From: Fibrobacter sp.
GTDB taxonomy: Bacteria > Fibrobacterota > Chitinivibrionia > Chitinivibrionales > Chitinispirillaceae
Assembly: GCA_012523595.1 (NCBI GenBank)
Contig: JAAYIG010000103.1
Coordinates: 1-45,880 of the forward strand
DNA length: 45,880 nt
Direction of reading: 5' to 3'
The notes beneath the pieces were generated by a model, which saw only the letters and a list, made by a program, of their open reading frames with translations, searched no databases and was not told the DNA's origin. The position numbers and the translations under genes were made by a program. Below are positions 18,417-39,343 of this stretch, in pieces; position 1 is the stretch's first letter, and each line of letters starts with the position of its first letter.

Positions 18417-18434
18417 TTTATGCATATGCATAAA
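18417..18434. other. 18-bp perfect palindrome over the GH141-like start codon
   Basis: TTTATGCATATGCATAAA reads identically on both strands and covers the ATG at 18420 and the in-frame ATG at 18426. It could be a protein-binding site or a start-codon-masking hairpin. About 0.2 such palindromes would be expected in 46 kb by chance at even base composition, so it may be coincidental. Confidence 0.35.
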
Positions 18435-21332
18435 ATCTGGTGTTATGGCGGGAATAAACGTGAGAAAATTCTATTCAAGTCAGTATTTGTCATTGTTGCT
18501 TTCTTCCTTTTTCTGTCATCGGCCATTGCGGGAACCCAGGCGACATTTTATGTGTCACCGGATGGCAGCGATGATAATCCCGGAACAATAAGTGCGCCTT
18601 TTAAAACAATCACAGCGGCCCGGGATGCTGTGCGCAAGATAAACAGCAGCATGTCCGGAGACATAATTGTTTACCTCAGAGGCGGCACTTACAATGTAAC
18701 AAGTCCAATAGCATTGAAGCCGCAGGATTCCGGGAAAAACGGATACAGGATTTACTACCGTGCCTATCCGGGTGAAACACCGGTTGTAAGCGGAGCCGTA
18801 AAAGTCACCGGGTGGACTCAGCACAGTGGAAACATCTACAAGGCTCCCCTGGACCGCTCCACTAAGCTGAGAAATTTGTATGTAAACGATATGAGAGCCT
18901 CTATGACCAGTAAAAGAGTCACGGCAAGAGGGGGGCAGGGTACTTATTCTGTAAGCTCTGGACAGGCCTCGTGGGCATGGGCAAGTGGCAGCAAGAGTGA
19001 TGGTGTAAAGTATAATATATCGGATGTGCCGGCGATTGCCAGTAACAAGGATGATCTCGAAATTGTAAATGGTACTACCTGGAATGAAAATATTGCCTGT
19101 GTAAGGGATGTCATTACTACAAATGATAATTACAGGGCGCTGATGCTGCAGCAGCCTTATGGAGCGATAACACAGACTCCCGGCTGGGGTGCGGCATTTA
19201 CAACAACTGGAAATCACACGATTTTCAATGCTTACGAGTTTCTGAATTCTCCCGGACAGTTCTACTTTGATAAAACCGCAAAAATGCTCTATTATTACCC
19301 TCGTCAGGGTGAAAATATGGCAACAGCGGATGTTCAGGCTCCTGTTGTTGAAATTCTGTTTGAAATTGCAGGTAACTCCACTACTGAACGGGTCGAGAAT
19401 ATAACCTTTGAAGGCATTACATTCGCACACACCGATTTCAATCTTTACCAGGTTGGCAATTCAAGGGGTAAGACAACTTGTCAGGGTGCAAATGGATACA
19501 TTGCTTTTTATGGTGATCTTAACTGGCACACTACCAGATATGAAATTCTCGATGTAAATCCGGGAATGTTAACAGTGAGAAATGCCAAATCTATTGACTT
19601 TATCGGCAATGTGATAAAGCATGCAGGTGCTGATGGAATCAATATGGCTAATGATGTTGTAAGCTGCAATATTATCGGGAACTATATAACAGATATCACA
19701 TCAAGTGGTATTACCATAGGTCATCCTCAGCATATAGATATCGGAGATGGTGGAACTTATGCAAAATACCCCCGGGGTGTAGAGGGCGTATGTAAAGACA
19801 TTACAATAAACAACAACCTTCTTTATGATATCAGTATGATTCCGGGATTTGGAGGATGTGCTGCCATAACAGCATACTTTACAGAATCACTCGCAATAAC
19901 CCATAACCATATCGAGCAAACAGCTTATAATGGTGTCAATCTGGGATGGGGATGGAGAGAGTTTAAATCATCGACAACCGCCAAGAACAACACAGTCAGT
20001 TATAATCGGATAATAAACACTCTGAGAAGACTTCATGACAGTGGTGCTATCTATACGATAGGGCAGAATCCGGGAACAAACATCAATGAGAATTATGTCA
20101 GGGGAATTCCTGCTGCGACCAATGGCCCTACTTATGGGCTGCATAACGATGAGGGTAGCGCGTGGATAGTTGAAAATGATAATGTTCTGGACATCGATCC
20201 CAATGTCAAATATACCATCAACTGTGAGGATTTCGGCGAGAAACATCACCTGACAATCCTGCGAACATTCGCGACTGTAAACAAAATGGGTGTTAACCCT
20301 CCAAACAGCACAATAGATCCGATCCAGGTGCGTTCAGATGCTGTCTGGCCGGCAACCCAGTATACTTTTTGTGTCAATTCAGGGATTCAGGATCAATACA
20401 GGCATGTTTATCCGGCCAATTTTATAAAGACAGAAAACTATGTGTTCCCTGCAAGCTGTGAAGCGCCTGCTGGAAGTACCATAAAAATCCGCAGTACTGG
20501 AGATTCTTCGGCAACAGTCTGGTTTGCTCCCTCAGGAACATCGAATTTCGCAGAGGGTCCCTCGATGACAAAGGCAGCGGGATATGACACGCTGATCAAG
20601 GTTCCGGATAGAAATGGGATTTATAAACTGTATGTTGTCAACAGCCAGGGAAAATCAGCCGAGTCGAGTGCATTGTTGAGAGTAAGCGGATCGTTATCAC
20701 AGATTGAAGCAGAAAATTATACCTCACAATCAGGAATTCAGACCGAAACCTGCTCTGAGGGCGGGCTGAATATAGGGTATATCGAAAACGGAGATTATGC
20801 TGTTTACAGTAATGTCAATTTTGGCACAGGTTCCGAGGAATTTCAGGCCAGGGTAGCCAGCGGCGGCAGTGGCGGAAAAATTGAAATCAGGATTGACGGC
20901 AGCAATGGGACACTTATAGGAACCTGTCAGGTCAGTGGAACAGGTGGATGGCAGACATGGACAACAGTCTCTTGCAATATAAGCAAAGTGACAGGTAAGC
21001 ATGATGTGTATCTGAAGTTCACAGGGGGGGATGGTTACCTTTTTAATCTAAACTGGTTCGAGTTTATCACAGGCTCAACTGCGATTGAAATGAGAAATAT
21101 CAGTGAAATCAGCAGCTTCAGGACATTCTTATCAAAAGAAAAAATCGTTATCAGGCAGAAGGGAAAAGAAGCAGCATACAGTGTTTCGGTTTTGATGCCG
21201 GATGGGCGACTGGTAAAGAAAATTGATAAAGCATCCGGGACCTGCATTGTTCCGGTGAGGAACAGGGGACCTTATATCGTCATGATCAAATGCGAAGGAC
21301 GTGTCAGAAAAAGCATTGTTTCGGGCTTTTAG
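18420..21332 (+). CDS. Secreted right-handed beta-helix glycosidase, GH141-like, with CBM6 and a weak T9SS-like tail
   Basis: Large parallel beta-helix enzyme. The beginning (TFYVSPDGSDDNPGT, FKTITAARDAV, VYLRGGTYNV, YRAYPGETPVVSG, RNLYVNDMRAS) follows the pattern of GH141, a family with xylanase and fucosidase members, so cutting of a xylan or pectin backbone or side chain is plausible. The helix region spans about residues 40-660 with asparagine-rich turns. An Ig-like segment (about 680-758), a CBM6 (about 760-883, similar to the CBM6 at 12688) and a divergent tail (about 903-970, PYIVMIKCEGRVRKS) follow. Signal peptide: IVAFFLFLSSAIAG near residues 23-38. AAGGGG lies eight bases before the ATG. 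A GH120-like or pectate-lyase-like beta-helix is the main alternative. Confidence 0.7.
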   Translation: MHMHKIWCYGGNKREKILFKSVFVIVAFFLFLSSAIAGTQATFYVSPDGSDDNPGTISAPFKTITAARDAVRKINSSMSGDIIVYLRGGTYNVTSPIALKPQDSGKNGYRIYYRAYPGETPVVSGAVKVTGWTQHSGNIYKAPLDRSTKLRNLYVNDMRASMTSKRVTARGGQGTYSVSSGQASWAWASGSKSDGVKYNISDVPAIASNKDDLEIVNGTTWNENIACVRDVITTNDNYRALMLQQPYGAITQTPGWGAAFTTTGNHTIFNAYEFLNSPGQFYFDKTAKMLYYYPRQGENMATADVQAPVVEILFEIAGNSTTERVENITFEGITFAHTDFNLYQVGNSRGKTTCQGANGYIAFYGDLNWHTTRYEILDVNPGMLTVRNAKSIDFIGNVIKHAGADGINMANDVVSCNIIGNYITDITSSGITIGHPQHIDIGDGGTYAKYPRGVEGVCKDITINNNLLYDISMIPGFGGCAAITAYFTESLAITHNHIEQTAYNGVNLGWGWREFKSSTTAKNNTVSYNRIINTLRRLHDSGAIYTIGQNPGTNINENYVRGIPAATNGPTYGLHNDEGSAWIVENDNVLDIDPNVKYTINCEDFGEKHHLTILRTFATVNKMGVNPPNSTIDPIQVRSDAVWPATQYTFCVNSGIQDQYRHVYPANFIKTENYVFPASCEAPAGSTIKIRSTGDSSATVWFAPSGTSNFAEGPSMTKAAGYDTLIKVPDRNGIYKLYVVNSQGKSAESSALLRVSGSLSQIEAENYTSQSGIQTETCSEGGLNIGYIENGDYAVYSNVNFGTGSEEFQARVASGGSGGKIEIRIDGSNGTLIGTCQVSGTGGWQTWTTVSCNISKVTGKHDVYLKFTGGDGYLFNLNWFEFITGSTAIEMRNISEISSFRTFLSKEKIVIRQKGKEAAYSVSVLMPDGRLVKKIDKASGTCIVPVRNRGPYIVMIKCEGRVRKSIVSGF

Positions 21333-21398: not shown

Positions 21399-24131
21399 AT
21401 GGGAGACAATTTATTCAAATTCAGTATTGCTGTATTACTGATGCTCTGTTTTTCGTACGGTTCTGCTTATTCCTCAGTTGACGGAAGTGTCGCAGAATTC
21501 TGGGAGCAGCAGTACCGTGAGATGCAGCAGGAAATAAATTTGTATAAAACTGCGGCAAAAAAAGCTTACAGAGAGAATGACCTTCTGGATGATAATGCTC
21601 AGATCCTGCCGGAAGATAAAACTCCAACCGATGTTGTAATGCGCCGTACCAGACTCCTTCTTCAGGACCTTAAGCGCCGGAGTAAATCGTCAAAATTTAA
21701 TGAATATGAGAAAGAATTGAATGCGCTTCAGAGAGAACTCAGTTCCGCAGCGCTGGCGAAAACATCTGACAGTAACACAGATACAAAAGATCAGTTCATG
21801 AAAGTCAGTGCGCTGGCCAGAAAGATCGCTCTTGATAACCCGCTGCTTGATTTCGAAGATCTGCTCTTTATCGGATATGTGTTCCCCAATAATGAAGTAC
21901 ACATGTGTGATCAATACAACCCATGGAATATCAACATGGGTGGAGGCTTGTTTATTCTGAAAAACTTTAAATCAAATCCGAATCTGGTAAATGTTCTACA
22001 GAATTCCAGGGTACAAGGCGGTCCTTTCAACGGATCAAATCTTTCAGGGGGGGCTTTTCTCTCTCCTGATCTCTCTTATGATGGAAAGACAATCCTTTTT
22101 GCCTGGTCGCCACCGAACAACAAATGTTACCACATTTTCAAAGTCAATATTGACGGATCGAATCTGGTGCAGCTTACCGATGGATCATCATCTGAGTTCA
22201 ATTTCCTGCAAAATTCCAATCATAATGATTTTGATCCTATATGGCTTCCAAACGGCCGCATTGTTTTTATTTCCGACCGTCGTGGAGGGTACGGAAGGTG
22301 TCATACCAAAGGCAAACCAACCTTTACACTTCATTCGATGAAGGATGATGGTTCGGATATTATCTGTATCAGCTACCACGAAACCAATGAGTGGCATCCA
22401 AGTGTCGACAATGACGGGAAAATCGTTTACACACGCTGGGACTATGTTGATCGTGATGACTGCATAGCGCATCATATGTGGACTTGTTACCCTGATGGAA
22501 GGGATCCGCGGTCTTATCATGGGAACTATCCTCTCCCTTTACAGACAATTACAGGTTCGAACTGGAGAGACGGGAGGTGGGACAGGCCCTATGCGGAATA
22601 CAATATCAGGGCGATACCGAATTCTTATAAGTACATCGCAACCGCATCGGGACATCACAGCTACACTTTCGGTGAACTTATCATGATTGATCCTTCAATC
22701 GAGGATGATGGAAAAGTTTCACAGGTGAGAAGAATAACAACAGCCTGGAACAACTGGCCTGATTTTGCCACAGGTCCCTATGGTACTGCATGGCCATTGA
22801 GCGAAGATTATTACCTTTGTAACAAAAACAACAGCATTATTCTGCGTGACAGGTGGGGTGGAGAACAGCTCATTTACTCAACAAATTCATGGCGGCCTAT
22901 TGATCCCATACCTGTCAAGGCAAGGCAAAAACCTCCTGCTCTTGCAACTGCTACCTGGCAGGGAGAACGTAAAAACAGAGACGATCATTATCGGGCTACA
23001 ATAAAGGTAAACGACGTTTATAACAGCGATATACCGCTTCCGGCCAATACGGTGATAAAGAAAATGAGAATCGTCCAGGTGTTCCCGAAGGAAACCAGGT
23101 TGATAAATGATCCAAGGAACGGTTATCCTGCCGAAGCGCTGGCCAGAATGTCACTGGGAACGGTTCCGGTTGAATCTGACGGCAGTGTTTATTGTGAAGC
23201 ACCTGTAGGAAAGATTATTTATTTCCAGTTAATTGACGACAAGGGACTTGCGGTACATTCGATGCGCAGTGCTACATATGTTCATGAAGGTGAACAGATG
23301 GCATGTGTGGGATGTCATGAAAACAAATGGCAAGCGCCTCCCGGAGGTGCCAACAAGATAGCCTTTTTACGGCCTCCATCAAAACTGAACCCTGAAGCAG
23401 GAGGGGTTGAGCCGGTTAACTTTGCCCGTCTTGTAAAGCCGGTTTTTAACAACAAATGTGCACCTTGTCACAGGAGCAGAGGCAGAGGGCCGGATATGAG
23501 CTTTGGCAGCCTCAAGAACTATGCGTTCTATTTCTGCGGTGATGGAAATCCGTATATCAATGGGGATATAGTTACTCCAGTAAAAGGTGGCTCACGAACC
23601 ACTCCCGGCAAATTCGGAGCTGCTTTTTCCAGGCTTATCAATAACCTGAACCCGTCACATCACGATGTTTCTTTGACAGAAGAAGAATATCAGCGGATAA
23701 CTCTCTGGCTTGATTTGAATTCAATGGAACTGGGAGCAGATTACAGGGTCAATGATCAGAAGAATGGGACTCTGGTCTGGCCGAGGATAGATCTGGATCC
23801 CTCAAATCCCCAGGGTGTTGAATTTGACCGTCCCTTACCGGGTACTGTGAGTGTACTGCGTGATAAGGAGATAAAGAGGATCAAGTTATTCAGAGATGGT
23901 TCAAGTTTGTCACTGACAGATCCTGAAAGGGCGTTCTGTGCTTTGTCATTGTTTGATATTTCAGGACGACTGGTTAATAAGTGGAACTTCAAAGATGAGG
24001 TGAACTCGATTCGACTTGACATGAAGACGAACAATATCACAAAAGGTGTTTATATATTCAAACCGGAATATTCCGGGAGCTCAGTATCCGGAAATGCAGT
24101 AAACACATCGGTGAAATTTATAGTTCATTGA
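21399..24131 (+). CDS. Secreted HzsA-related beta-propeller protein with two c-type haem motifs and a T9SS tail
   Basis: Resembles the hydrazine-synthase-alpha-related proteins widespread in Planctomycetes and other bacteria; those outside anammox bacteria have no established reaction, and hydrazine synthesis is not implied here. Signal peptide (MGDNLFKFSIAVLLMLCFSYGSAYS), a charged helical region (about 28-130), then the signature stretch NPLLDFEDLLFIGYVFP and GGGLFIL, PD40-type propeller blades (LSPDLSYDGKTILFAW, LPNGRIVFISDR), then haem sites C636-VGC-H640 and C687-APC-H691. Residues about 830-910 form a sorting tail (LSLFDISGRLVNK then ITKGVYIF). A haem protein with such a tail should get haem in the periplasm and then be exported. 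GGGAG precedes the ATG. It opens the cytochrome module ending with ResB/CcsA. Oxidation of a sugar or aromatic compound, or electron transfer, are both possible. Confidence 0.75.
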   Translation: MGDNLFKFSIAVLLMLCFSYGSAYSSVDGSVAEFWEQQYREMQQEINLYKTAAKKAYRENDLLDDNAQILPEDKTPTDVVMRRTRLLLQDLKRRSKSSKFNEYEKELNALQRELSSAALAKTSDSNTDTKDQFMKVSALARKIALDNPLLDFEDLLFIGYVFPNNEVHMCDQYNPWNINMGGGLFILKNFKSNPNLVNVLQNSRVQGGPFNGSNLSGGAFLSPDLSYDGKTILFAWSPPNNKCYHIFKVNIDGSNLVQLTDGSSSEFNFLQNSNHNDFDPIWLPNGRIVFISDRRGGYGRCHTKGKPTFTLHSMKDDGSDIICISYHETNEWHPSVDNDGKIVYTRWDYVDRDDCIAHHMWTCYPDGRDPRSYHGNYPLPLQTITGSNWRDGRWDRPYAEYNIRAIPNSYKYIATASGHHSYTFGELIMIDPSIEDDGKVSQVRRITTAWNNWPDFATGPYGTAWPLSEDYYLCNKNNSIILRDRWGGEQLIYSTNSWRPIDPIPVKARQKPPALATATWQGERKNRDDHYRATIKVNDVYNSDIPLPANTVIKKMRIVQVFPKETRLINDPRNGYPAEALARMSLGTVPVESDGSVYCEAPVGKIIYFQLIDDKGLAVHSMRSATYVHEGEQMACVGCHENKWQAPPGGANKIAFLRPPSKLNPEAGGVEPVNFARLVKPVFNNKCAPCHRSRGRGPDMSFGSLKNYAFYFCGDGNPYINGDIVTPVKGGSRTTPGKFGAAFSRLINNLNPSHHDVSLTEEEYQRITLWLDLNSMELGADYRVNDQKNGTLVWPRIDLDPSNPQGVEFDRPLPGTVSVLRDKEIKRIKLFRDGSSLSLTDPERAFCALSLFDISGRLVNKWNFKDEVNSIRLDMKTNNITKGVYIFKPEYSGSSVSGNAVNTSVKFIVH

Positions 24132-24162
24132 TAACAGAAAAAGCGGCAAGCCAGGGTGTAAA

Positions 24163-24999
24163 ATGACGAAAATACGAAGCGGGCAGACAGTTTCCTTCTT
24201 ATCGGCTGTTTTTCTGCTGGCTGTTTCAATTTCAGCCAGGATAGACCGTGTCGATATCTTTGACAGAGCCGGAAACAGTCTGCTTTTTGTGGAGTTTGAG
24301 TATGATGCAGATGGGAAAAATACCGGGCGTTCTGTATATGCTTCAGACAGCACTTTCCTGAGAAGGACAGTTTTTGTAAACGATAATACAGGAAAAAGAA
24401 TCAGAGAGGTATCGTTTGATTTCAACAACGATACAATAGGCAGGACTGAATTTTCCACAATCGGTAATAAACCAGGTATTTCGGTATTTGATCAGTTTAA
24501 ACTTGATCAATTCGGGGCGCCTGTCAGCTATTCGGCCAATGGTGAAAATTCATATGATATCTACCATAATGGCTCGGTCGTTTACAAAATGAGATACAGC
24601 TCCAATGCCGGCGGAGACCTCAGCCGCATTGAGGTATTAAGCCCGCAAAATGAGCTTTTGTATTATGCTTCTGTTTCTACACCTTCAAGTTCGGTGAAGG
24701 GGTATACAGGGGGCGCGACTGTAGTCCCGAAGATCACATTCTCCGCAAACCATTTTCATCTTTCGGCAGATTTCAACAGTGTTACAGATGTGAAGCTGTG
24801 TATATATGATTTATCCGGCAGGCTTGTGTCTGTTCCCTTCTCAAAGAGATTGAAACCCGGCCTGTTCAAGGGACAATTCAGTATTGATGAACCTGGAAGG
24901 CGATTACCCGGGGGAGTGTATATTGCCCGGCTCTATATCAATGATAAGGCATCAGCATCCACTCACAGGTTTATAAATAAAGCCGGGAGTCTGAGATGA
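24163..24999 (+). CDS. Small secreted protein of unknown function with a T9SS tail
   Basis: 278 residues with a signal peptide (VSFLSAVFLLAVSISA). The middle has several short strand repeats of the form DRAGN, YDADGK and FDFNNDTIGR, reminiscent of YD/RHS-type antiparallel strands, but I do not recognise a family. The last 80 residues are a sorting tail (VKLCIYDLSGRLV, LPGGVYIARL). It lies 31 bases after the HzsA-related gene and overlaps the next start by four bases (ATGA), so it is translationally coupled to the di-haem protein. A partner or surface anchor for the cytochromes is a guess from position only. No cysteine haem motifs are present. Confidence 0.6.
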   Translation: MTKIRSGQTVSFLSAVFLLAVSISARIDRVDIFDRAGNSLLFVEFEYDADGKNTGRSVYASDSTFLRRTVFVNDNTGKRIREVSFDFNNDTIGRTEFSTIGNKPGISVFDQFKLDQFGAPVSYSANGENSYDIYHNGSVVYKMRYSSNAGGDLSRIEVLSPQNELLYYASVSTPSSSVKGYTGGATVVPKITFSANHFHLSADFNSVTDVKLCIYDLSGRLVSVPFSKRLKPGLFKGQFSIDEPGRRLPGGVYIARLYINDKASASTHRFINKAGSLR

Positions 25000-26867
25000 G
25001 AAAAACATTTTACTCTATAATATGCCTGCTTTTGATGCAGCAGATTTGTTTTGCAGAGGATCCAAAGGAGATTGTGCCTCCCAGCCTGATATTTGAGCTT
25101 CTTGCACTCAATGGTGACCTTGAAACAGTTCAGAGACCACGATATCTTTCTCCTTCCTCGATGGAGGTTTCACCTGATGGCAAGTTCATATACATCGGGG
25201 CACGGACAGCCAAACAGGTGCTTGTTTTTTCTGTAAGTTCAAATTCCGTCACAAAATCTTTTCCTATGCCCAATGAACCTACAGGCATAGCTGTTTCTGG
25301 TGATGGTTCAAGGTTATATGTAACCTGTTCATCGGAGCGCTGGCCCAATGGCATGGTCTGTGTTGTAAATGTATCATCCGGAACGATTGAACAGCGGATT
25401 TCAGCAGGTCACATGGCACGGTCTCCGGTTTTAAGTCCTGATGGGGATATGCTTTACGTCTGCAACTGGATGGAAAATTCCATATCATTTATCAATGTCG
25501 TTTCAGCAAGGGAAGAGAAACGGGTACCGGCGATCAAGGAACCTTACTCAATGGCATTGTCTGGTGATGGAGCTTTTCTGCTGGTGGCAAATATGATTCC
25601 GGATGGAATTGCCACTGATACGGCGATGACCTGCAAAGTCTGTTTTATTGATACTAAGACAGGGTCCATTAAAAAGACATTGAGGCTGCCAACCGGAAGC
25701 CACTCCACAATGAACATCTGTCTGACACCTGACAAGAAGTATGCATTTATCCCGCATCTGATCGGCCGTGTCAGCCTTCCTGCTGTCACACTTGATCAGG
25801 GATGGGTGCATTCGAACAACCTCGCTATTATCGACATGGAAAAACAGGATCTGTACAATGATGTCGAACTTGATGACAACCGGCTGGGGTTTGCAAATCC
25901 ATGGGATGTGGCTTGTACAGATGATGGAAAATGGTTGTGTGTTGCGCATGCAGGCTACGATGTGCTGACTGTTGTTGACATGCCTGCAATGTTTGAAAAG
26001 CTGAAAGGAAAGGGAGATGTTTCACATGAATTTACATTTATACGGGATTTGAAAAGAACGCTGGTATTAAGAGTTCGCAGTCCGCGTTCTGTCGCTGTAA
26101 TCGGATCAAAGGCATATACGGTTGGTTACTTTTCGAATAGTATTGAATCTGTTGATCTGAATGCGGCAAGTCTCCTGCCGCAACTCCACGAGCTTGCTCC
26201 TGAGAAGGCTTTGACTGCAGAGCGAAAAGGTGAGAGCTATTTCTATGATGCCAATCTCTGTGTCGGACATTGGCAATCCTGTCATTCCTGTCATCCATTT
26301 ACCCGTCCCGACGGACTCAACTGGATACTTTCCGACTCCTACCTGAATTCACCTAAAAATGCAAAAAGCATGCTTCATACATTCCAGACTCCTCCAACCA
26401 ACTGGACCGGCAGGCGCAACGATGCTTTTGAATCTGTCCGTGCCGGAATTCGCCTTGAGCTGCAGGTGGAACCTTCAGCGGAAGTAGCGGTGGCGCTGGA
26501 TACTTTTCTTTTACGTCTTAAACCTGTTCCAAGTCCAAAGCTTGTGAAAGGGAGACTGAGTGAATCTGCACAAAGGGGCAGAGAGATTTATTATGATAGC
26601 AAAAAACTCGATTGTATCCATTGTCATCCCGCACCTCTGTTTACCAATCTTAAAAATGCAAATGCGGGTGTTGTAGACATCTATGACCCGCGAACAGAAT
26701 GGGACACTCCATCCATAATAGAATGCTGGCGAACGGGACCCTATAATCACCTTGGATCCCATGAAACAATAGAGGAAATAGTCCTGCAGCCGGGTCATTC
26801 CAAAAATGTCAAAGCACTGACCTCTGAAGAGTTCAGGGATCTGATCGAATACATACTTTCACTGTAA
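24996..26867 (+). CDS. Periplasmic YVTN-type beta-propeller fused to a di-haem peroxidase-like (MauG/CcpA) domain
   Basis: The N-terminal part (about residues 45-390) has propeller blades of the YVTN type (MEVSPDGKFIYIGAR, IAVSGDGSRLYVTC, PVLSPDGDMLYVCNW, SMALSGDGAFLLVAN). The C-terminal part (about 410-623) has two c-type haem motifs, C429-HSC-H433 and C540-IHC-H544, in a context (RGREIYYDSKKLDCIHCHPAPLFTN, then TPSIIECWRTGPYNHLGS) like di-haem cytochrome c peroxidase/MauG proteins. Such proteins use two haems to oxidise a protein or small molecule or to reduce peroxide. Signal peptide: MRKTFYSIICLLLMQQICFA. It has no sorting tail, unlike its two upstream neighbours, so it probably stays in the periplasm. 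Start overlaps the previous stop by four bases. Confidence 0.78.
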   Translation: MRKTFYSIICLLLMQQICFAEDPKEIVPPSLIFELLALNGDLETVQRPRYLSPSSMEVSPDGKFIYIGARTAKQVLVFSVSSNSVTKSFPMPNEPTGIAVSGDGSRLYVTCSSERWPNGMVCVVNVSSGTIEQRISAGHMARSPVLSPDGDMLYVCNWMENSISFINVVSAREEKRVPAIKEPYSMALSGDGAFLLVANMIPDGIATDTAMTCKVCFIDTKTGSIKKTLRLPTGSHSTMNICLTPDKKYAFIPHLIGRVSLPAVTLDQGWVHSNNLAIIDMEKQDLYNDVELDDNRLGFANPWDVACTDDGKWLCVAHAGYDVLTVVDMPAMFEKLKGKGDVSHEFTFIRDLKRTLVLRVRSPRSVAVIGSKAYTVGYFSNSIESVDLNAASLLPQLHELAPEKALTAERKGESYFYDANLCVGHWQSCHSCHPFTRPDGLNWILSDSYLNSPKNAKSMLHTFQTPPTNWTGRRNDAFESVRAGIRLELQVEPSAEVAVALDTFLLRLKPVPSPKLVKGRLSESAQRGREIYYDSKKLDCIHCHPAPLFTNLKNANAGVVDIYDPRTEWDTPSIIECWRTGPYNHLGSHETIEEIVLQPGHSKNVKALTSEEFRDLIEYILSL

Positions 26868-26884
26868 TAGAATCGGAGAGCCCA

Positions 26885-28210
26885 ATGGCGCAGCTAAAAA
26901 GGTTTGCGGTTATTTTTTTTCTGAGTTTTTCAATGTTATTTGCTGAGGAAAAATCTGGGGTCAGTATTTCCGGATGGGGCTGGCTCACTATGGGTCAGGT
27001 GAAAGGATCGGAATATGTAAATATAATGGGGAATGTTGATTTCAGTGAAAAACCGCTTGGCGATTTTCAGGCTGGTGTGAAATTCACATCTCCTATGTTT
27101 TCGAGAACTGTCTGCAGACTTCATCTGATGAGTTCATTTATGTTCCCTGTGGTAAATATCTCCATGGGTGTAGACAACGCAGAACCGCTTCAGAAATCCT
27201 TTGCACTCTCTCTTCTTGAGGCATCTTTACAAACAAATTGGAGTGTCTCTGACAATGATACAGTGTCGGTAGAATTCGGATATTTTCCTGTTAAATATAA
27301 TCCGGAAGCGATGAATCTGGGGGAGTATCTTTTCCGCAGCAATGCTTATCCCGCTCTTCTGGTAAGCGGATTTGAACAGGCTGACAAAGTAAAACTGGCT
27401 GGTGTCAGGACAGGCTATCTCAACCATGCATCATCGGGAACCTATAAGGTCGATCTTTATCTGAATACCGAAACCGACCTGTTCCCCACAATGGATTTAT
27501 CTCTCTCAGGTATTCTCAGCTATAAGTGCCCGAAATCATTTATCGACCTCTCCGCAGGTATCTCATTTTTCCATCTTATACCGTTTGACGAAAAGAGAAT
27601 TACACCTGCAAAAGACAAATCGTATACTACACAATCAGCATCTTTTATTGACTCCCTGACAGGGGACACCACCCATTACACATTCAGGGGTACAAAGGTC
27701 GCTGCACGTATAACCATCGATCCCAAGGTGTTTTTCAAAAGGGGAATTCTGGGGGAGAATGATCTTAAATTATATGCTGAATCTGCTGTTCTGGGGGTAA
27801 AAAATTATCCCGGATGGTATAATAACATAAGGGAGCGGATTCCGGTAATGTTCGGGTTCAATCTGCCGGCTTTTAAATTGCTTGATGTACTTGCTGTTGA
27901 GGTTGAATATTTTCCTTCACCATACCAGAACTCATTTCAGTTTATGTGGAAATCTAATTCACCTGTTCCTTATTTCAATACCTATGCGGGTATCGAGTAT
28001 TATTCAGACTGGGAGCGAAAAACTGATGATGACTGGAAATGGTCTGTTTATGCATCGAAATCGATAGGGAAATTCCGGATCAGCGGGCAGATCGCAAGTG
28101 ATCATATCTCAAGAGCACCTTACATGGTGGCAGGCAAAAAGGTCTACTCTGAAATCTGTCCGAGAACTGAAGACTGGTATTATATGCTTCGCTGTGGATT
28201 TTTCTTTTAA
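26885..28210 (+). CDS. Predicted outer-membrane beta-barrel protein of unknown family
   Basis: 441 residues with a signal peptide (MAQLKRFAVIFFLSFSMLFA) and then alternating polar/hydrophobic strands rich in Tyr, Phe and Gly to the end. The final residues LRCGFFF end in phenylalanine, as outer-membrane barrels do. It starts 17 bases after the di-haem peroxidase-like gene, with GGAGAG upstream, and its stop overlaps the next start (TAATG). A porin or conduit barrel for the cytochromes, by analogy with porin-cytochrome systems, is a hypothesis; no homologous family is recognisable by eye. Confidence 0.65.
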   Translation: MAQLKRFAVIFFLSFSMLFAEEKSGVSISGWGWLTMGQVKGSEYVNIMGNVDFSEKPLGDFQAGVKFTSPMFSRTVCRLHLMSSFMFPVVNISMGVDNAEPLQKSFALSLLEASLQTNWSVSDNDTVSVEFGYFPVKYNPEAMNLGEYLFRSNAYPALLVSGFEQADKVKLAGVRTGYLNHASSGTYKVDLYLNTETDLFPTMDLSLSGILSYKCPKSFIDLSAGISFFHLIPFDEKRITPAKDKSYTTQSASFIDSLTGDTTHYTFRGTKVAARITIDPKVFFKRGILGENDLKLYAESAVLGVKNYPGWYNNIRERIPVMFGFNLPAFKLLDVLAVEVEYFPSPYQNSFQFMWKSNSPVPYFNTYAGIEYYSDWERKTDDDWKWSVYASKSIGKFRISGQIASDHISRAPYMVAGKKVYSEICPRTEDWYYMLRCGFFF

Positions 28211-29403
28211 TGGCAGAGGATTTAAGCATGCATACACTTGTCCAGAATGAGACCAGATTCTCCTGCAGCAGGTTTTCATCACCTGCAGGTTTGACGGAAA
28301 TCTTTATCACTGTGAACAGCAGGGATGATATTTCCTTTGATGAAGCGCTTGAGGAACTGAGAGATGTGTATGCTTCTTTGTCGGATGATTTAAAGCTGGA
28401 CAAAAACACTCTTCAGTTCACTCGTGTATATTTGAGTGATTACGCCAATGAATATCTACCTTTACTGAATTCTGATTTATACAGGATACTGCAGTCAGGA
28501 GTTGTTTCTGTAATTGAACAGAGGCCGATCTATGGTCCGGTATCACTTTTTTCCTACCATATCAAAGATGAAACCGGTTACCTTCGTAAATACAATGTAA
28601 TTGCAGATCCGGAAAAAGAATTTCAGAAGATGTTAACAAATGGAAATTCCTACAGCCTTCTCTGGACAGCTAACAGCACAGGTGACGGGGCTGACAGTAA
28701 AACCCAGACAGAGAATCTATTTTCTGAGCTTTCAGCCAATGTCAGCAAATACAGGATGAGCCTGCGGGAAAACACTGTCCGTACCTGGATATATGTAAGA
28801 GATATTGATAATAACTACAAAGGGATGGTTGTTGCCCGCCGTGAATTATTCGATTCGATCGGATTAACGGACAAGACCAGGTACATTGCAAGCACCGGTA
28901 TTGAAGGAAAGTCGGTAAACAGGAAAGCTCTTGTCACTCTTGATTCACTATCAATAGGTAATCTTAAAGAAGAGCAGATTATAAGAATGGAGGCTCTGGA
29001 TAATCTGTCATCGACAATAGATTACGGGGTGACATTCGAGCGGGGTCTGCGGATCAGATTTGGCGACAGGTCTCATATGTATATTTCCGGAACGGCAAGT
29101 ATTGACAACAGGGGTGAAATCCTTTATCCCGGAGATATAAGGGGACAGACAGAACGTACTATAGACAATATCGAAGCTCTGCTCAGGCCTCATGGGGCAA
29201 CGATTGACGATATGCGTTATATAATTCTGTATGTCAGAAACAGAAAACATTATCAGTTCATACAGGATATACTACTGTCAAGGCTGCCGTCTGATATTCC
29301 TCTTATTTCCGTTGAAGGAGCAGTATGCCGTCCGGGATGGCTTATCGAAATGGAAGGTGTGGCCATAATAGATGATTCAAATGATTATCCTCCCTTTTTC
29401 TGA
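28210..29403 (+). CDS. Chorismatase-like / double YjgF-RidA-fold protein, probably cytoplasmic
   Basis: 397 residues without a signal peptide. The C-terminal half matches the RidA-like domain of FkbO/Hyg5/XanB2 chorismatases: YISGTASIDNRGE, YPGDIRGQTERTIDNI, a VEGAVCRPGWLIEMEG end corresponding to the CR...LVEIEG active-site region. The N-terminal half (FTRVYLSDYANEY, VSVIEQRPIYG) fits the degenerate first RidA-like domain of those proteins. Chorismatases hydrolyse or rearrange chorismate to dihydroxy-dihydrobenzoate or hydroxybenzoates. Here, between an outer-membrane barrel and cytochrome maturation genes, it might make an aromatic precursor, but a plain Rid-type deaminase role is also possible. 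ATG 28210 overlaps the previous stop; ATG 28234, preceded by AGAGG, is an alternative start. Confidence 0.62.
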   Translation: MAEDLSMHTLVQNETRFSCSRFSSPAGLTEIFITVNSRDDISFDEALEELRDVYASLSDDLKLDKNTLQFTRVYLSDYANEYLPLLNSDLYRILQSGVVSVIEQRPIYGPVSLFSYHIKDETGYLRKYNVIADPEKEFQKMLTNGNSYSLLWTANSTGDGADSKTQTENLFSELSANVSKYRMSLRENTVRTWIYVRDIDNNYKGMVVARRELFDSIGLTDKTRYIASTGIEGKSVNRKALVTLDSLSIGNLKEEQIIRMEALDNLSSTIDYGVTFERGLRIRFGDRSHMYISGTASIDNRGEILYPGDIRGQTERTIDNIEALLRPHGATIDDMRYIILYVRNRKHYQFIQDILLSRLPSDIPLISVEGAVCRPGWLIEMEGVAIIDDSNDYPPFF

Positions 29404-29427
29404 TCTCCCGTTGTATGATGTAACTGT

Positions 29428-30501
29428 ATGACCAATCTCCTCAAAAAAACAACGGGGTATATTGCTTCTGCAAAACTGAGTGTTACATGTCTTTTACTGA
29501 TGGCTGTTATTGTTTTCTGGGGAACTCTTTACCAGTCATCGGAGGGACTCTTTGCGGCAAGGGAGCGGTTTTTTCAATCATGGTTTGTACTGACACGATT
29601 CAGTATACCTTTCCCAGGGATGAAGCTGATCTCACTGGCTCTTTTACTCAACGTGATATTCAGCTCTCTGAGGTTTTTTAAAAAGCCTTTAAAGTATTCC
29701 GGCCTTATACTTATTCATTCCGGTTTAGCATTGTTTCTAGCTGGAATCCTTTTTTCATCCAGATTTACACAGGAATACTATTTGCCGCTCCGGGAGGGTC
29801 AGGAAGTATCAAGTGCATATAGTACTGAACAATTTGAAATCGCCTCATTCAGGACAATATTTTCGCAGTCATCGTTTGTAATAGATTCAATTCCAGTGGC
29901 CAGCTTGAAAAAGGATCAGGAAATAGTATTTCCAAATACAGGTATGAAATTTAAAGTGAGAAGTGTCGGCAGAATAAAGGAATCTCACGATGGGCAGGAA
30001 AACATTCAGGGTTGTCAGGCTGCACTTATAATCGATGAATTATGTAATTTCAGGTTTGAAAAGGAAGTAGTGCTTAAGAGCAATGAACAGCCGTTTTCTT
30101 ATATTTGTGGATTTGACACTGTGTTAGTTTCAATGCGTCATTCCGCGGTTCCATTACCTGTCAATTTGAAACTGATCGATTTCCATGGTAAGTTCTATCC
30201 AGGCACAAAAACACTCAAAAAGGTGGAGAGCCAGATTCTGGTCAGCAGTGATAAACTGGTCAGAGAAGTGAAAGTGTCGATGAACAAGCCATTCAGGCAT
30301 GGATCGTATACTTTTTATCAGGCGTCATTTTCAAATGACGGAGGCAATGAGGCTGTCAATATTTCGGTTGTGTATAATCCATACCGCCTCTTCCCCTATA
30401 CAGCAAGCATCCTCATGATCGCGGGGTTCATTATTCATCTTCTGCTTCTTGTCATCTGGAGAAGCAAATCTGAACCGGGGCATATCTCTGATGGAAAATA
30501 G
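29428..30501 (+). CDS. resB: ResB/CcsB-like cytochrome c biogenesis protein (System II)
   Basis: Membrane subunit of the System II haem-export and ligation complex. Three N-terminal membrane segments (SVTCLLLMAVIVFWGTLYQ, LISLALLLNVIF, GLILIHSGLALFLAGILF) are followed by a periplasmic domain with REGQEV and a final membrane segment (TASILMIAGFIIHLLLLVIW). The 'LI..G..L.L.G' and 'YTFYQASF' blocks are typical of ResB. 357 residues is short for ResB but usual for the compact version found beside large CcsA proteins in Bacteroidetes-like phyla. It sits directly before ccsA and after genes for two di-haem proteins, giving those proteins a dedicated maturation system. Confidence 0.82.
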   Translation: MTNLLKKTTGYIASAKLSVTCLLLMAVIVFWGTLYQSSEGLFAARERFFQSWFVLTRFSIPFPGMKLISLALLLNVIFSSLRFFKKPLKYSGLILIHSGLALFLAGILFSSRFTQEYYLPLREGQEVSSAYSTEQFEIASFRTIFSQSSFVIDSIPVASLKKDQEIVFPNTGMKFKVRSVGRIKESHDGQENIQGCQAALIIDELCNFRFEKEVVLKSNEQPFSYICGFDTVLVSMRHSAVPLPVNLKLIDFHGKFYPGTKTLKKVESQILVSSDKLVREVKVSMNKPFRHGSYTFYQASFSNDGGNEAVNISVVYNPYRLFPYTASILMIAGFIIHLLLLVIWRSKSEPGHISDGK

Positions 30502-32365
30502 ACCTCTCTGCAGCAATCAATCTCTGCTGAAAACCGCTTTTATAATATTCCTGCTTTTTGCATGCGTTTTCTCAGAGGATGATTCGAAAATTGATTTCAG
30601 CAGGGCAGGCAGAATTATTGTTCTGGATGAGGGGCGGAAAATGCCTCTTCATTCGTATGCCCGGAAAAAGCTCATTCAGATATCCGGGCGCGGAAAAATT
30701 GGCGGTATGAGTGCACTGGAGTGGCTTCTGGAGCTCATGTTCAATCCCGGGAAAATTGACACCTTACAGTGTTTCAGAATCATTAATCCGGAAACAGTGG
30801 ATGCTCTTGGCATCGAGGGGCCGTATAAACGGCGTTATCGCTATACAGAACTGTACAATGCGCTTGGAAAATGCGAGCAGATTGCAATCTCCCTTTCAAA
30901 AAGAGAATTTTCTGAAATTCAGCCTTTTGAACGGGAAATTATGCAACTGTGGCATAATGTACAGGAATATAACGCACTGGGTTCAATGTTCAGTGCATTT
31001 GATCCTTTTGAAGCATTTACCATTTCAGACAGCGCACTGGCTTCATCGCTGCGGCTTCGGTTAAATCATCCCTATTCCTACAGCGAAATGATCCGGTTGT
31101 CTCATGTTTTTTCTGCTGCTATGGAGAATCTAAACAGTAAACAACTTGATTCATTGACAAGCGGTGAATCGGAACTGCTGAGGCTTGTCCGTACAATGCA
31201 CGCACTGAGTTCACAGATGCAGAATGCTCCGCCGCCTATCATACATGTAAATGAAAATGGAAATGAGGAATGGTACAGTATCTGGGGATACCTTGGTAAA
31301 TCTGGAAACAAGGCACTGAAAGACAATCAGGTCAGGTTACTTCTTCATATGAGAGCCGCATATCTGAACCGGGATGTCGCTTCTTTCGCTGACGCAGTCG
31401 ATCATTTAACATCTGTAAAATACAAGGATTATCCTTTCCCTGGACTTGAAATTCTATATAACAGATTAAATCTGTTTTTCTGGGCCAGAATTCTTCTTGT
31501 ACTGGCAATATTTGCTACTCTCTTTGGGATGTTTTATGGCCATAAATGGGCGGGGGTTGCCAGTCTCTTTTTAATCGGGTGTGGATGGCTGCTGCAGACT
31601 ACAGGCTTAATTTTAAGGATATTCATACAGTTGCGCCCGCCGCTGGCAAGTCTGTATGAAACGTTTGTTTTTGTATCGTGGATAATTGTGATACTGGGCA
31701 CAGGACTCGATCTGATTCAAAAACGTAACCTTGGTAAATTGATTGCATCGTGCGGAGGATTTTTATTTCTGGTAATATCAGGCAGGTATGCGGTTAATGG
31801 CGATACTTTCGGGGTTATTACCGCAGTATTGAATTCCAGCTTCTGGCTTACGATTCATATTGTGACGATTTCAACCGGATATGCAGGATTCCTTGCCTCC
31901 GGGCTGCTGGGACATATACATCTGATTCAGAGAGCATTGAAAACAGATAAAAAGGTTACACAATCAACATCTGAAGCAGTGTACATCTTTATGCTCCTCG
32001 GGCTTGCTTTTACGGTTGCTGGAACCATGTTAGGGGGAATGTGGGCGGATCAGGCCTGGGGAAGGTTCTGGGGGTGGGATCCAAAAGAAAACGGAGCCTT
32101 ACTGATAATACTATGGGGTTCTGCAGTGGTTCATGCAAAAAGAGGAAAGATTATCGGGTCGGCTTTAACATCTGCATGCGCAGTAATCAGTATTCTTATG
32201 GTGATGCTTGCATGGATCGGTGTAAACCTTCTGGGTGTTGGCCTTCATTCCTATGGATTCACTTACTCAGGAATTGGTTTACTTGCCGGTGTTTTTGTTT
32301 TAGAATTCCTGTTTCTCGTATCGATGGGTTTTTTAAACAGGTCTTCTGAAAAGGAACCGGCCTGA
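30491..32365 (+). CDS. ccsA: CcsA/ResC-like cytochrome c haem lyase with periplasmic N-terminal domain (System II)
   Basis: Catalyses haem handling and attachment with ResB. The start at 30491 (MENRPLCSNQ) overlaps the resB stop by 11 bases, with GGGG upstream. A signal anchor is followed by a periplasmic domain (about residues 35-330; RIIVLDEGRKMPLHSYARKK resembles the 'GR.kPldT.A' start of long CcsA proteins), then about eight membrane segments. The tryptophan-rich haem-binding WWD motif is AWGRFWGWDPKEN, and conserved histidines are in TIHIVTIS and VVHAKRG. Length (625) fits long CcsA proteins of Bacteroidetes/Chlorobi type. Last gene of the long plus-strand run; a hairpin follows at 32469. 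Confidence 0.87.
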   Translation: MENRPLCSNQSLLKTAFIIFLLFACVFSEDDSKIDFSRAGRIIVLDEGRKMPLHSYARKKLIQISGRGKIGGMSALEWLLELMFNPGKIDTLQCFRIINPETVDALGIEGPYKRRYRYTELYNALGKCEQIAISLSKREFSEIQPFEREIMQLWHNVQEYNALGSMFSAFDPFEAFTISDSALASSLRLRLNHPYSYSEMIRLSHVFSAAMENLNSKQLDSLTSGESELLRLVRTMHALSSQMQNAPPPIIHVNENGNEEWYSIWGYLGKSGNKALKDNQVRLLLHMRAAYLNRDVASFADAVDHLTSVKYKDYPFPGLEILYNRLNLFFWARILLVLAIFATLFGMFYGHKWAGVASLFLIGCGWLLQTTGLILRIFIQLRPPLASLYETFVFVSWIIVILGTGLDLIQKRNLGKLIASCGGFLFLVISGRYAVNGDTFGVITAVLNSSFWLTIHIVTISTGYAGFLASGLLGHIHLIQRALKTDKKVTQSTSEAVYIFMLLGLAFTVAGTMLGGMWADQAWGRFWGWDPKENGALLIILWGSAVVHAKRGKIIGSALTSACAVISILMVMLAWIGVNLLGVGLHSYGFTYSGIGLLAGVFVLEFLFLVSMGFLNRSSEKEPA

Positions 32366-37753: not shown

Positions 37754-39343
37754 ATGGCACAGCGGGAGTACTGGGGTTCGAAACTCGGAGTAATTCTGGC
37801 AGTTGCAGGAAGCGCGATCGGGTTGGGGAATTTTTTGCGTTTTCCGGTAAAGGCAGCAACCTATGGTGGCGGGGCATTTCTGATCCCTTACCTGATAGCC
37901 TTTGTACTTCTGGGGATACCACTTGCCTGGGTAGAGTGGACTATGGGAAGATACGGAGGCAGGTATTCACATGGGAGTGCACCCGGTATTCTCGATGTTG
38001 TAGTCAGGAAACCGTGGGCAAAATATGTTGGATCGCTGGGCATCCTGGGTCCGCTCCTGATCTATTTTTACTATGTCTACATTGAATCGTGGCTTTTGGG
38101 ATTTGCCTTCTATGCTCTTAACGGTGAGCTGCTTAATGCAGTAGAAACAAATACTATCACCGTTTTTTTCGGCAACTATATAACTCTCCAGACTACACTT
38201 TTCGCAAATATCCCTGCTGCACTTGTCTTTTTTCTGGTGACATTTATTCTGAATTTCGCCATAATCGGATTCGGTATACGGCGTGGCATTGAAGTGGCCA
38301 ATAAATTTGCTTTACCACTTATTTTTATTCTTGGAATAGTGCTTCTGATTCGTGTCCTTACCATTCCAGACATTGACCGTGGATTGGCTTTTATGTGGAA
38401 TCCTGATTTCAGTTCACTGCTGAAACCCAAAGTATGGCTGGAAGCATCAGGGCAGATCTTCTTTACTCTCAGTGTAGGTATCGGAGTAATACTTACTTAT
38501 GCATCATATGTCCACCGTAATCAGGATGTCGCGTTATCTTCTCTGTCATCTTGTGCTGCAAACGGGTTTGCTGAAGTAATAATCGGGGGGACAATAGTAA
38601 TTCCGATGGCAATTGTGCTTTTCGGTGTAGACAATGTAGAACAGGTGGCAAAAGTGGGGACATTCGGGCTGGGGTTCAATACCATGCCAATGCTGCTGGG
38701 GAAGATACCGTTGTCTTCACTACTGCAGTTTATCTGGTTCATGCTGCTGTTTTTTGCCGGAATTACCTCATCGATGTCCATTATACAGCCCTCTATCAGT
38801 TTTCTTGAGGATGAGCTCTCATGGAAACGATCCAGGGCGGTTGCGGTAACAGCCCTGCTGTCTTTTATTATGTGTCTTATCGGAGTGTTCGGGTTGTCGG
38901 GCGGTGCAATCGATGAGCTTGATTTCTGGGGAGGAACATTTGCGCTTGTCATCTTTGGAACCATCGAGGCAGTTCTGTTCGCATGGGTACTGGGAATTGA
39001 TAAAGGTTGGGATGAACTGAACAGGGGTGCTCATATCAGGCTTCCGGTCATATTCAAATACATCCTCAAATACGTGACTCCTGTTTACCTTCTGGTAATC
39101 CTGACAGCCTGGTTTATTACTGACGGATGGGGATTTATTACCCTGAAGGGAATAGATCCATCGGAACAGGTGAATTTTCTGGGTGTAACACTGTCTAAAA
39201 CAGTATTTATTGCAGCGTTCAGAATTCTCCTTCTAATGCTTCTTTTCGGGATCAATCTGGTCATTTATCTGGCATGGAAAAAGAATAAAAACGAGAATAA
39301 ATCTACAGTTAACAATCTTGAGAAGGAAACGGTTCATGCGTGA
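37754..39343 (+). CDS. Neurotransmitter:sodium symporter (NSS/SNF) family amino-acid transporter
   Basis: Inner-membrane sodium-coupled symporter, probably for a neutral amino acid such as alanine or methionine. The first membrane segment has the family's unwound sodium/substrate site, GSAIGLGNFLRFPVKAATYGGGAF, and the next, LIAFVLLGIPLAWVEWTMGRYGG, matches TM2. About 12 membrane segments follow; FTLSVGIGVILTYASYV corresponds to TM6 and FAGITSSMSIIQP to TM8. The ATG has AGGAG 11 bases upstream. It overlaps a small MetS-like protein by eight bases. It appears unrelated to the neighbouring secreted enzymes, though peptides or amino acids could come from cell-wall proteins. Confidence 0.93.
   Translation: MAQREYWGSKLGVILAVAGSAIGLGNFLRFPVKAATYGGGAFLIPYLIAFVLLGIPLAWVEWTMGRYGGRYSHGSAPGILDVVVRKPWAKYVGSLGILGPLLIYFYYVYIESWLLGFAFYALNGELLNAVETNTITVFFGNYITLQTTLFANIPAALVFFLVTFILNFAIIGFGIRRGIEVANKFALPLIFILGIVLLIRVLTIPDIDRGLAFMWNPDFSSLLKPKVWLEASGQIFFTLSVGIGVILTYASYVHRNQDVALSSLSSCAANGFAEVIIGGTIVIPMAIVLFGVDNVEQVAKVGTFGLGFNTMPMLLGKIPLSSLLQFIWFMLLFFAGITSSMSIIQPSISFLEDELSWKRSRAVAVTALLSFIMCLIGVFGLSGGAIDELDFWGGTFALVIFGTIEAVLFAWVLGIDKGWDELNRGAHIRLPVIFKYILKYVTPVYLLVILTAWFITDGWGFITLKGIDPSEQVNFLGVTLSKTVFIAAFRILLLMLLFGINLVIYLAWKKNKNENKSTVNNLEKETVHA

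Follow-up and report, generated by a model that had tools for sequence, protein, structure and literature searches.

An operon for hydrazine synthase-like haem proteins and a chorismatase-family partner in Fibrobacterota, with relatives in other bacterial phyla

What role do haem-protein genes, accompanied by genes for haem attachment, play within a run of polysaccharide-degradation genes? The question arises from contig JAAYIG010000103.1 of Fibrobacter sp. (GCA_012523595.1), whose 45,880 nucleotides we refer to as the window; it spans all of contig C103, from a genome of 4.1 Mb and 99.5% completeness, and the named relatives of this genome comprise metagenome-assembled genomes of Chitinispirillaceae and other Fibrobacterota. 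Between positions 21399 and 32365, seven plus-strand genes are separated by gaps of 31, 17 and 24 bases or by short overlaps. All seven tightly spaced reading frames described in a first-pass annotation of the window were recovered at the same positions, together with the start/stop overlaps it had read as signs of a co-produced unit (ATGA at 24996, TAATG at 28210 and 11 bases between the ResB and CcsA genes) and a 66-base interval from the end of an upstream GH141-like gene (21332). Our analysis suggests that the operon probably encodes an exported redox complex resembling hydrazine synthase (HZS) that works together with the products of its neighbouring genes.

The relationship to HZS is clearest in the third gene (24996–26867), which encodes a 623-aa protein with a signal peptide, a YVTN-type propeller and a di-haem CCP/MauG-like domain (haem motifs CHSCH at residue 429 and CIHCH at residue 540). 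Residues 53–384 match chain B of the HZS structure 5C2V (3.9e-22) and residues 409–622 match chain C (1.5e-8), while a profile built from the family matches the two chains at 2e-41 and 2e-22. When restricted to the gamma region, the profile favored HZS gamma (1.8e-31, 112 bits) over any peroxidase (at most 51 bits). Family-level matches were to Lactonase, YNCE and CCP_MauG, and the NCBIfam model for the HZS beta-gamma fusion matched far under its cut-off. The protein had been described as a YVTN-propeller/di-haem peroxidase-like protein, a label that misses its homology to fused HZS beta and gamma subunits. The gamma domain also carries an invariant WR motif and an R.D..NW motif of its own. 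Since the first gene of the operon encodes a relative of HZS alpha, this match means that all three HZS subunits have homologues in the operon.

The alpha-like protein (21399–24131, 910 aa; PF18582, 5.3e-18) consists of a signal peptide, a PD40 propeller, an HZS_alpha middle domain and a weak C-terminal tail of the type recognized by the type IX secretion system (T9SS), with haem motifs at residues 636 (CVGCH) and 687 (CAPCH). A 14-member alpha profile matched 5C2V chain A at 1.6e-40 across the propeller, middle and C-terminal haem domains. The gene is present in a single copy in its own genome. Elsewhere, the single genomes behind loci L073 and L072 (G168 and G173; Planctomycetota/Verrucomicrobiota) hold 41 and 52 HZS-alpha-like matches, an apparent expansion.

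Residues that define HZS chemistry are missing from both proteins. The position of alpha Tyr591 (four residues after the alpha-I CxxCH), which serves as the proximal ligand of that haem (PMC12607021; roles of key HZS residues also in PMC12758564), is Trp in the window protein and N, T, R, K, W, S, L, D, G or A, never Tyr, among 52 alphas. In 82 beta-gamma proteins, with numbering anchored on the haem ligands Cys102, Cys105 and His106 (all kept), the gamma His144 position is Trp in the window, and the other proteins have Trp, Ser, Ala, Ile or Val there, never His; the third thioether Cys165 is missing in 81 and replaced by Met in one; and the Asp168 position is never Asp. Scores against the NCBIfam HZS models were 44, 100, 36 and 98 bits, for cut-offs of 800, 560, 625 and 1250. 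Judged from sequence, then, the alpha-like and beta-gamma-like proteins are homologues of HZS subunits that are inherited together and lack the HZS-specific catalytic residues, and the predicted product of the operon is a tetra-haem (two plus two motifs) member of an HZS-like superfamily, distinct from hydrazine synthase.

The first-pass annotation proposed that the genes form one unit, and the distribution of the families bears this out: they clearly co-occur in other genomes, contrary to the outcome it had named as a refutation, and the gene set recurs in order on many Fibrobacterota contigs, which is more than expected by chance. The recurrent order is alpha, small protein, beta-gamma, barrel, ResB and CcsA, with the chorismatase gene in either of two positions (after alpha or after the barrel) and some members missing. 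Clustering of neighbours at 105 loci, in which some contigs were counted twice under two names, placed the barrel near beta-gamma at 29 Fibrobacterota loci, the small protein at 25, the chorismatase at 17 and ResB/CcsA at 12–13. Beta-gamma itself is present in 15 of 168 Fibrobacterota genomes. The chorismatase accompanies it in 14 of these 15 versus 5 of the 153 others (p 2e-15), ResB in 14 versus 27 (p 5e-9) and the barrel in 14 versus 16 (p 2e-11), p-values that overstate independence because the genomes are kin; all three associations were still significant within the order. In a beta-gamma tree, all Fibrobacterota copies grouped together (99% in the SH-like approximate likelihood ratio test, SH-aLRT) with the window copy nearest to two Fibrobacterota metagenome bins; the anammox lineage was represented by 5C2V alone, on a branch too long to place. 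At one locus (L036/L059, on G021:C93) a small tailed protein is encoded between two tandem beta-gamma genes, each sharing about 45% identity with the window protein, and another (L054, on G038:C542) has a beta-gamma gene broken by several stops while keeping the chorismatase, ResB and a remnant of CcsA, and represents either a decaying copy or an assembly error.

Beyond Fibrobacterota, a scan of GTDB species genomes recovered at least 555 stretches with genes for relatives of beta-gamma, of which 80 were kept for analysis. These derive from Fibrobacterota, Planctomycetota, Verrucomicrobiota, Kiritimatiellota, Lentisphaerota, Hydrogenedentota, Armatimonadota and Acidobacteriota, along with single bins named Nitrospirota and Pseudomonadota. 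Among the 64 non-Fibrobacterota loci, alpha lay directly upstream on the same strand in 23 of 56; alpha-like genes make up an estimated half a percent of genes in the two genomes with 41 and 52 matches, so adjacency by chance would account for well under one case. By raw count, the chorismatase was the immediate downstream gene in 15 of 63 loci. Two neighbours alone recurred at more than a handful of loci in these phyla, alpha at 33 and the chorismatase at 18, and the chorismatase partners were found in Planctomycetota, Verrucomicrobiota, Hydrogenedentota, Lentisphaerota, Armatimonadota, Acidobacteriota and Nitrospirota bins. Gene content and order in these genomes point to a putative redox system that is widespread across phyla.

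The one further partner that recurs across phyla is the chorismatase-family protein (28210–29403, 397 aa; FkbO/Hyg5 type, with matches to TIGR04444 and PF01042). Its score against the FkbO/Hyg5 model TIGR04444 (1.6e-12, 47 bits) lies below the cut-off of 325, indicating a relative rather than a member of that curated family; a profile of the family matched Hyg5 at 9e-21 and FkbO at 1.9e-20. Residues E380 and C373, equivalent to Hyg5 Glu334 and Cys327, were kept in 23 of 24 relatives (the remaining one is gapped), and G294, the Gly of the SGTAS motif, in all 24; the catalytic roles of the corresponding Hyg5 residues have been described (PMC7170507). No signal peptide was seen in the protein, and it is predicted to be cytoplasmic. 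In three Fibrobacterota genomes that lack beta-gamma, the chorismatase gene adjoins a gene for a PD40/TPR protein with one CxxCH (L162:4891-8627, L164:7359-10467 and L165:5219-8928), suggesting that its link to exported haem proteins extends past the HZS-like pair.

The last two genes of the operon would supply these proteins with haem. ResB/Ccs1 (29428–30501, 357 aa; PF05140, 1.6e-12) is a system II cytochrome c haem-attachment protein and the only ResB in the genome. The CcsA-type haem lyase (30491–32365; 624 aa from ATG 30491 or 638 aa from TTG 30449; PF01578, 4.4e-21) has a long N-terminal part and a WGRFWGWD motif, and scores 120 bits against TIGR03144 (cut-off 187.6). A c-type cytochrome module equipped for its own maturation, as first proposed, is supported, since the sole ResB of the genome is in the operon. 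No member of the haem-copper oxidase/NO-reductase family was found in 13 of the 15 carrier genomes, the window genome included; the organism appears anaerobic, so that O2 or H2O2 would be scarce. The earlier suggestion of an unrelated respiratory unit is unlikely in the aerobic sense.

Surface-directed proteins had also been predicted, and here T9SS-like tails were present and the T9SS translocon SprA is encoded in the genome. The tail of alpha (T9SS type A) scores 18.5 bits and that of the small secreted beta-rich protein (24163–24999, 278 aa) 19.1 bits against TIGR04183 (cut-off 23), and both tails recur in relatives, in alignment for the small protein. A predicted structure of the latter has a C-terminal immunoglobulin (Ig)-like domain with a Z score of 8.5 to the C-terminal domain of PorU, tied with other Ig folds, and an N-terminal part weakly resembling DUF3836/YmcC-like secreted proteins. 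The fourth gene (26885–28210, 441 aa) is predicted to encode a porin-like outer-membrane beta-barrel. It had no Pfam or NCBIfam match; its AlphaFold2 model is beta-rich and of moderate confidence (pLDDT, the predicted local distance difference test, of 72), and Foldseek aligned it with OmpM1/OmpF-type porins (best E 7.6e-12, TM 0.46), closest to those with 16 strands. Barrel relatives also occur as tandem pairs or triplets, 10–13 per genome, with no haem genes nearby (L155, L156, L157 and L161; G158, G162, G163 and G154). From this distribution, they apparently form one large, uncharacterised group of porins within a single Fibrobacterota family.

The operon lies within a carbohydrate-degradation cluster. 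Upstream are enzymes of xylan/arabinan type (GH31, GH43, GH30 and GH141), many with CBM4_9 or CBM6 modules and T9SS tails, of which the GH141-like/CBM6 enzyme (18420–21332, plus strand) directly precedes the operon; the end of a homologous gene also precedes it at locus L032. A 291-aa open frame antisense to this gene (18555–19430, minus strand) is probably a shadow frame. The other flank contains rhamnogalacturonan lyases (RGL11), a GH43 gene and an SNF-family sodium symporter (37754–39343). The polysaccharide-degradation run reported at first pass is, more precisely, made up of xylan, arabinan and rhamnogalacturonan enzymes on both sides of the operon. In Fibrobacterota, carbohydrate-active enzymes (CAZymes) account for at least 11 of 46 in the operon flanks compared to 2 of 47 random genes of the same genomes (p about 0.006, from lower-bound counts). 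Near non-Fibrobacterota beta-gamma genes, no CAZyme recurred beyond the sulfatase and acetyl xylan esterase families (5–6 loci). CAZyme linkage was therefore set aside as a defining feature: the random-gene controls show enrichment in Fibrobacterota, but the neighbours are mixed.

These surroundings bear directly on the proposal that the operon is a secreted oxidative arm of plant cell-wall breakdown, acting like a peroxidase or a partner of lytic polysaccharide monooxygenases (LPMOs) and co-regulated with the adjacent xylanases and pectinases. Part of this idea, which the first-pass annotation had raised, survives in the CAZyme enrichment of Fibrobacterota flanks, in the CBM6 or CBM4_9 enzymes and glucuronyl or GDSL esterases found upstream in several relatives, and in the resemblance between the T9SS tails of the operon and those of neighbouring CAZymes. 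It fits poorly with the several copies that adjoin kinases, glycosyltransferases or sensors, and with the non-Fibrobacterota loci, where just alpha and chorismatase recur at more than a handful of loci. The position aligned with the distal catalytic Glu of CCP peroxidases is not Glu (the alignment in that loop is uncertain), and an apparently anaerobic organism would meet little O2 or H2O2. Because CAZyme neighbours are enriched but not universal, an association with a polysaccharide-based lifestyle is likely, while direct participation in the oxidation of cell walls is, in our estimation, unlikely. Another explanation would be an ordinary di-haem CCP/MauG-type enzyme that happens to share an operon with a PD40 cytochrome, forming no HZS-like complex and leaving the chorismatase and porin as bystanders. 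The gamma domain does match CCP/MauG structures, Trp at the His144 position is the residue of CCP/MauG (PMC12758564), and some genomes hold very many alpha-like genes; yet the gamma profile prefers HZS gamma by a wide score difference, the propeller-gamma fusion is that of HZS beta-gamma, alpha adjoins beta-gamma far above its base rate, and the chorismatase tracks beta-gamma genome by genome. We consider this explanation improbable.

The presence of haem proteins, an outer-membrane barrel and maturation genes together, with the barrel family correlated with ResB in Fibrobacterota, could instead indicate an extracellular electron-transfer or anaerobic respiratory conduit in which electrons move outward through the haem proteins and porin. 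A porin-cytochrome conduit was rejected for the barrel once its relatives had been followed into genomes lacking beta-gamma, where the tandem barrel genes have no haem genes nearby, as expected of a general porin family; the operon also encodes no multihaem cytochrome, alpha and beta-gamma have only two haem motifs each, and a conduit seems quite improbable. Least probable of all, to the point that we give it very little credence, is hydrazine synthase proper, or an enzyme converting nitric oxide (NO) to hydroxylamine or hydrazine, in what would be a hidden nitrogen-cycle bacterium. Homology of alpha, beta and gamma to 5C2V, and the fused HzsBC of Scalindua (PMC10732223), speak for it. The operon was rejected as a hydrazine synthase on the absence of alpha Tyr591 and gamma His144, Cys165 and Asp168, the window genome has neither NrfA nor a member of the haem-copper oxidase/NO reductase family, and an analysis of other homologues likewise concluded that they are not HZS (PMC12758564).

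We return to an HZS-like exported redox complex, against which several observations nonetheless weigh. Some Fibrobacterota beta-gamma genes (L041, L043 and L045) have no barrel, chorismatase or maturation genes nearby, and about half of the non-Fibrobacterota loci show no alpha within the stretch examined. The window alpha is 22–28% identical to alphas of other Fibrobacterota operons (L034, L035, L037–L039, L042 and L045 compared) despite 41–48% identity between the beta-gamma proteins of the same operons, and is 44% identical to the alpha of a Hydrogenedentota bin (L123); such differences in alpha subfamily between operons with similar beta-gamma suggest an exchange of partners. Neither alpha nor the small protein reaches the family cut-off with its T9SS tail, and beta-gamma has no tail. 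In favour of the complex, no other CCP/MauG or CBB3-type cytochrome was found in the genome, in a search of limited sensitivity (PF13442 missed the haem domain of alpha itself).

If the HZS-like complex is nonetheless real, its apo-proteins would cross the inner membrane by Sec, receive haem in the periplasm from ResB/CcsA and, in the case of alpha and the small protein, be carried to the surface by T9SS. Alpha and beta-gamma may assemble as in HZS, with the gamma-I-type and alpha-I-type haems serving as two catalytic sites and gamma-II as an electron relay. In the cytoplasm, the predicted reaction of the chorismatase turns chorismate into 3-hydroxybenzoate or a closely related compound, and this aromatic acid may leave the cell, perhaps via the porin, to act as a substrate, mediator or ligand of the complex, which would be the most economical reading of the conserved linkage. 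The repeated association of the chorismatase with exported haem proteins suggests that its aromatic is used outside the cell by them, the least certain step in the scheme; that the aromatic is a substrate or mediator of the complex is a conjecture we hold to be doubtful. On the broadest scale, bacteria numbering in the hundreds and spread over at least seven phyla may possess an extracytoplasmic HZS-like tetra-haem redox system that uses the aromatic of a dedicated chorismatase, reaching the surface and equipped with its own haem-attachment genes in Fibrobacterota, and anammox HZS may be a specialised offshoot of this older family; we offer this synthesis tentatively, as less likely than not.

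How hydrazine synthase arose is an unsettled matter in anammox biology, and the function of the wider family is not known. A conserved cytoplasmic partner with a predictable and assayable reaction (chorismate to 3-hydroxybenzoate) provides a first concrete handle on HZS-like proteins, and heterologous expression should be feasible in practice, as the operon supplies maturation genes along with those of the haem proteins. The data also caution that hzs homology is unsafe as a marker of anammox.

How the operon compares to known systems defines what is new about it. The first-pass annotation knew of no described system with this composition, a statement that does not hold for the core: side-by-side HzsA-like and fused HzsBC-like genes were published for Phycisphaerae in 2023, with the remark that HZS-like enzymes may be a broader family with other substrates (PMC10732223), and co-located alpha and beta-gamma homologues that have lost key residues were reported from Planctomycetota, Desulfobacterota and others in 2025 (PMC12758564). 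The text of the latter study has no mention of Fibrobacter, Verrucomicrobi, chorismat, ResB or maturation, and a literature search on Chitinispirillaceae and cytochromes found nothing relevant. What appears to be new is the Fibrobacterota version with genes for haem maturation, an outer-membrane barrel and surface sorting, the wider spread of the HZS-like alpha/beta-gamma family and, from comparison of gene neighbourhoods, the recurrence in at least seven phyla of just one further partner, a putative chorismatase whose catalytic residues are conserved.

Like HZS itself (Kuenenia 5C2V, and Scalindua with its fused HzsBC), the operon has adjacent genes for a di-haem alpha, a propeller beta and a di-haem gamma, the last two fused; it differs in placing alpha upstream of beta-gamma, in its extra genes, in its unconserved key residues and in scores far under the model cut-offs. 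The HZS-like loci of Phycisphaerae/KSB1 (PMC10732223) and of clades I–IV (PMC12758564) also resemble it, with an alpha-like gene adjoining a fused beta-gamma-like gene, two C-terminal haem motifs and key HZS residues missing. As in clade IV, there is no FG-GAP neighbour, whereas the eight extra haem motifs of clade I homologues are absent from the operon protein. CCP, MauG and MbnH share the gamma-domain fold, two CxxCH motifs, a TPY.H.G-type motif and Trp at the HZS His144 position, but the operon gamma domain is fused to a propeller, carries its own WR and R.D..NW motifs and, in a loop of uncertain alignment, does not have the CCP Glu at the aligned position. Both core proteins of system II maturation (ResB/Ccs1 and CcsA) are encoded, with a WWD-type motif, and differ from the known system in sitting within the unit they would serve. 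The chorismatase-family protein aligns with Hyg5, FkbO and XanB2 over its second half and keeps their RTW, TGI, SGTAS and CR...E motifs along with the catalytic Glu and Cys; in contrast to those enzymes, it is encoded outside a natural-product cluster, its first half falls outside the alignment, and it is linked to exported haem proteins.

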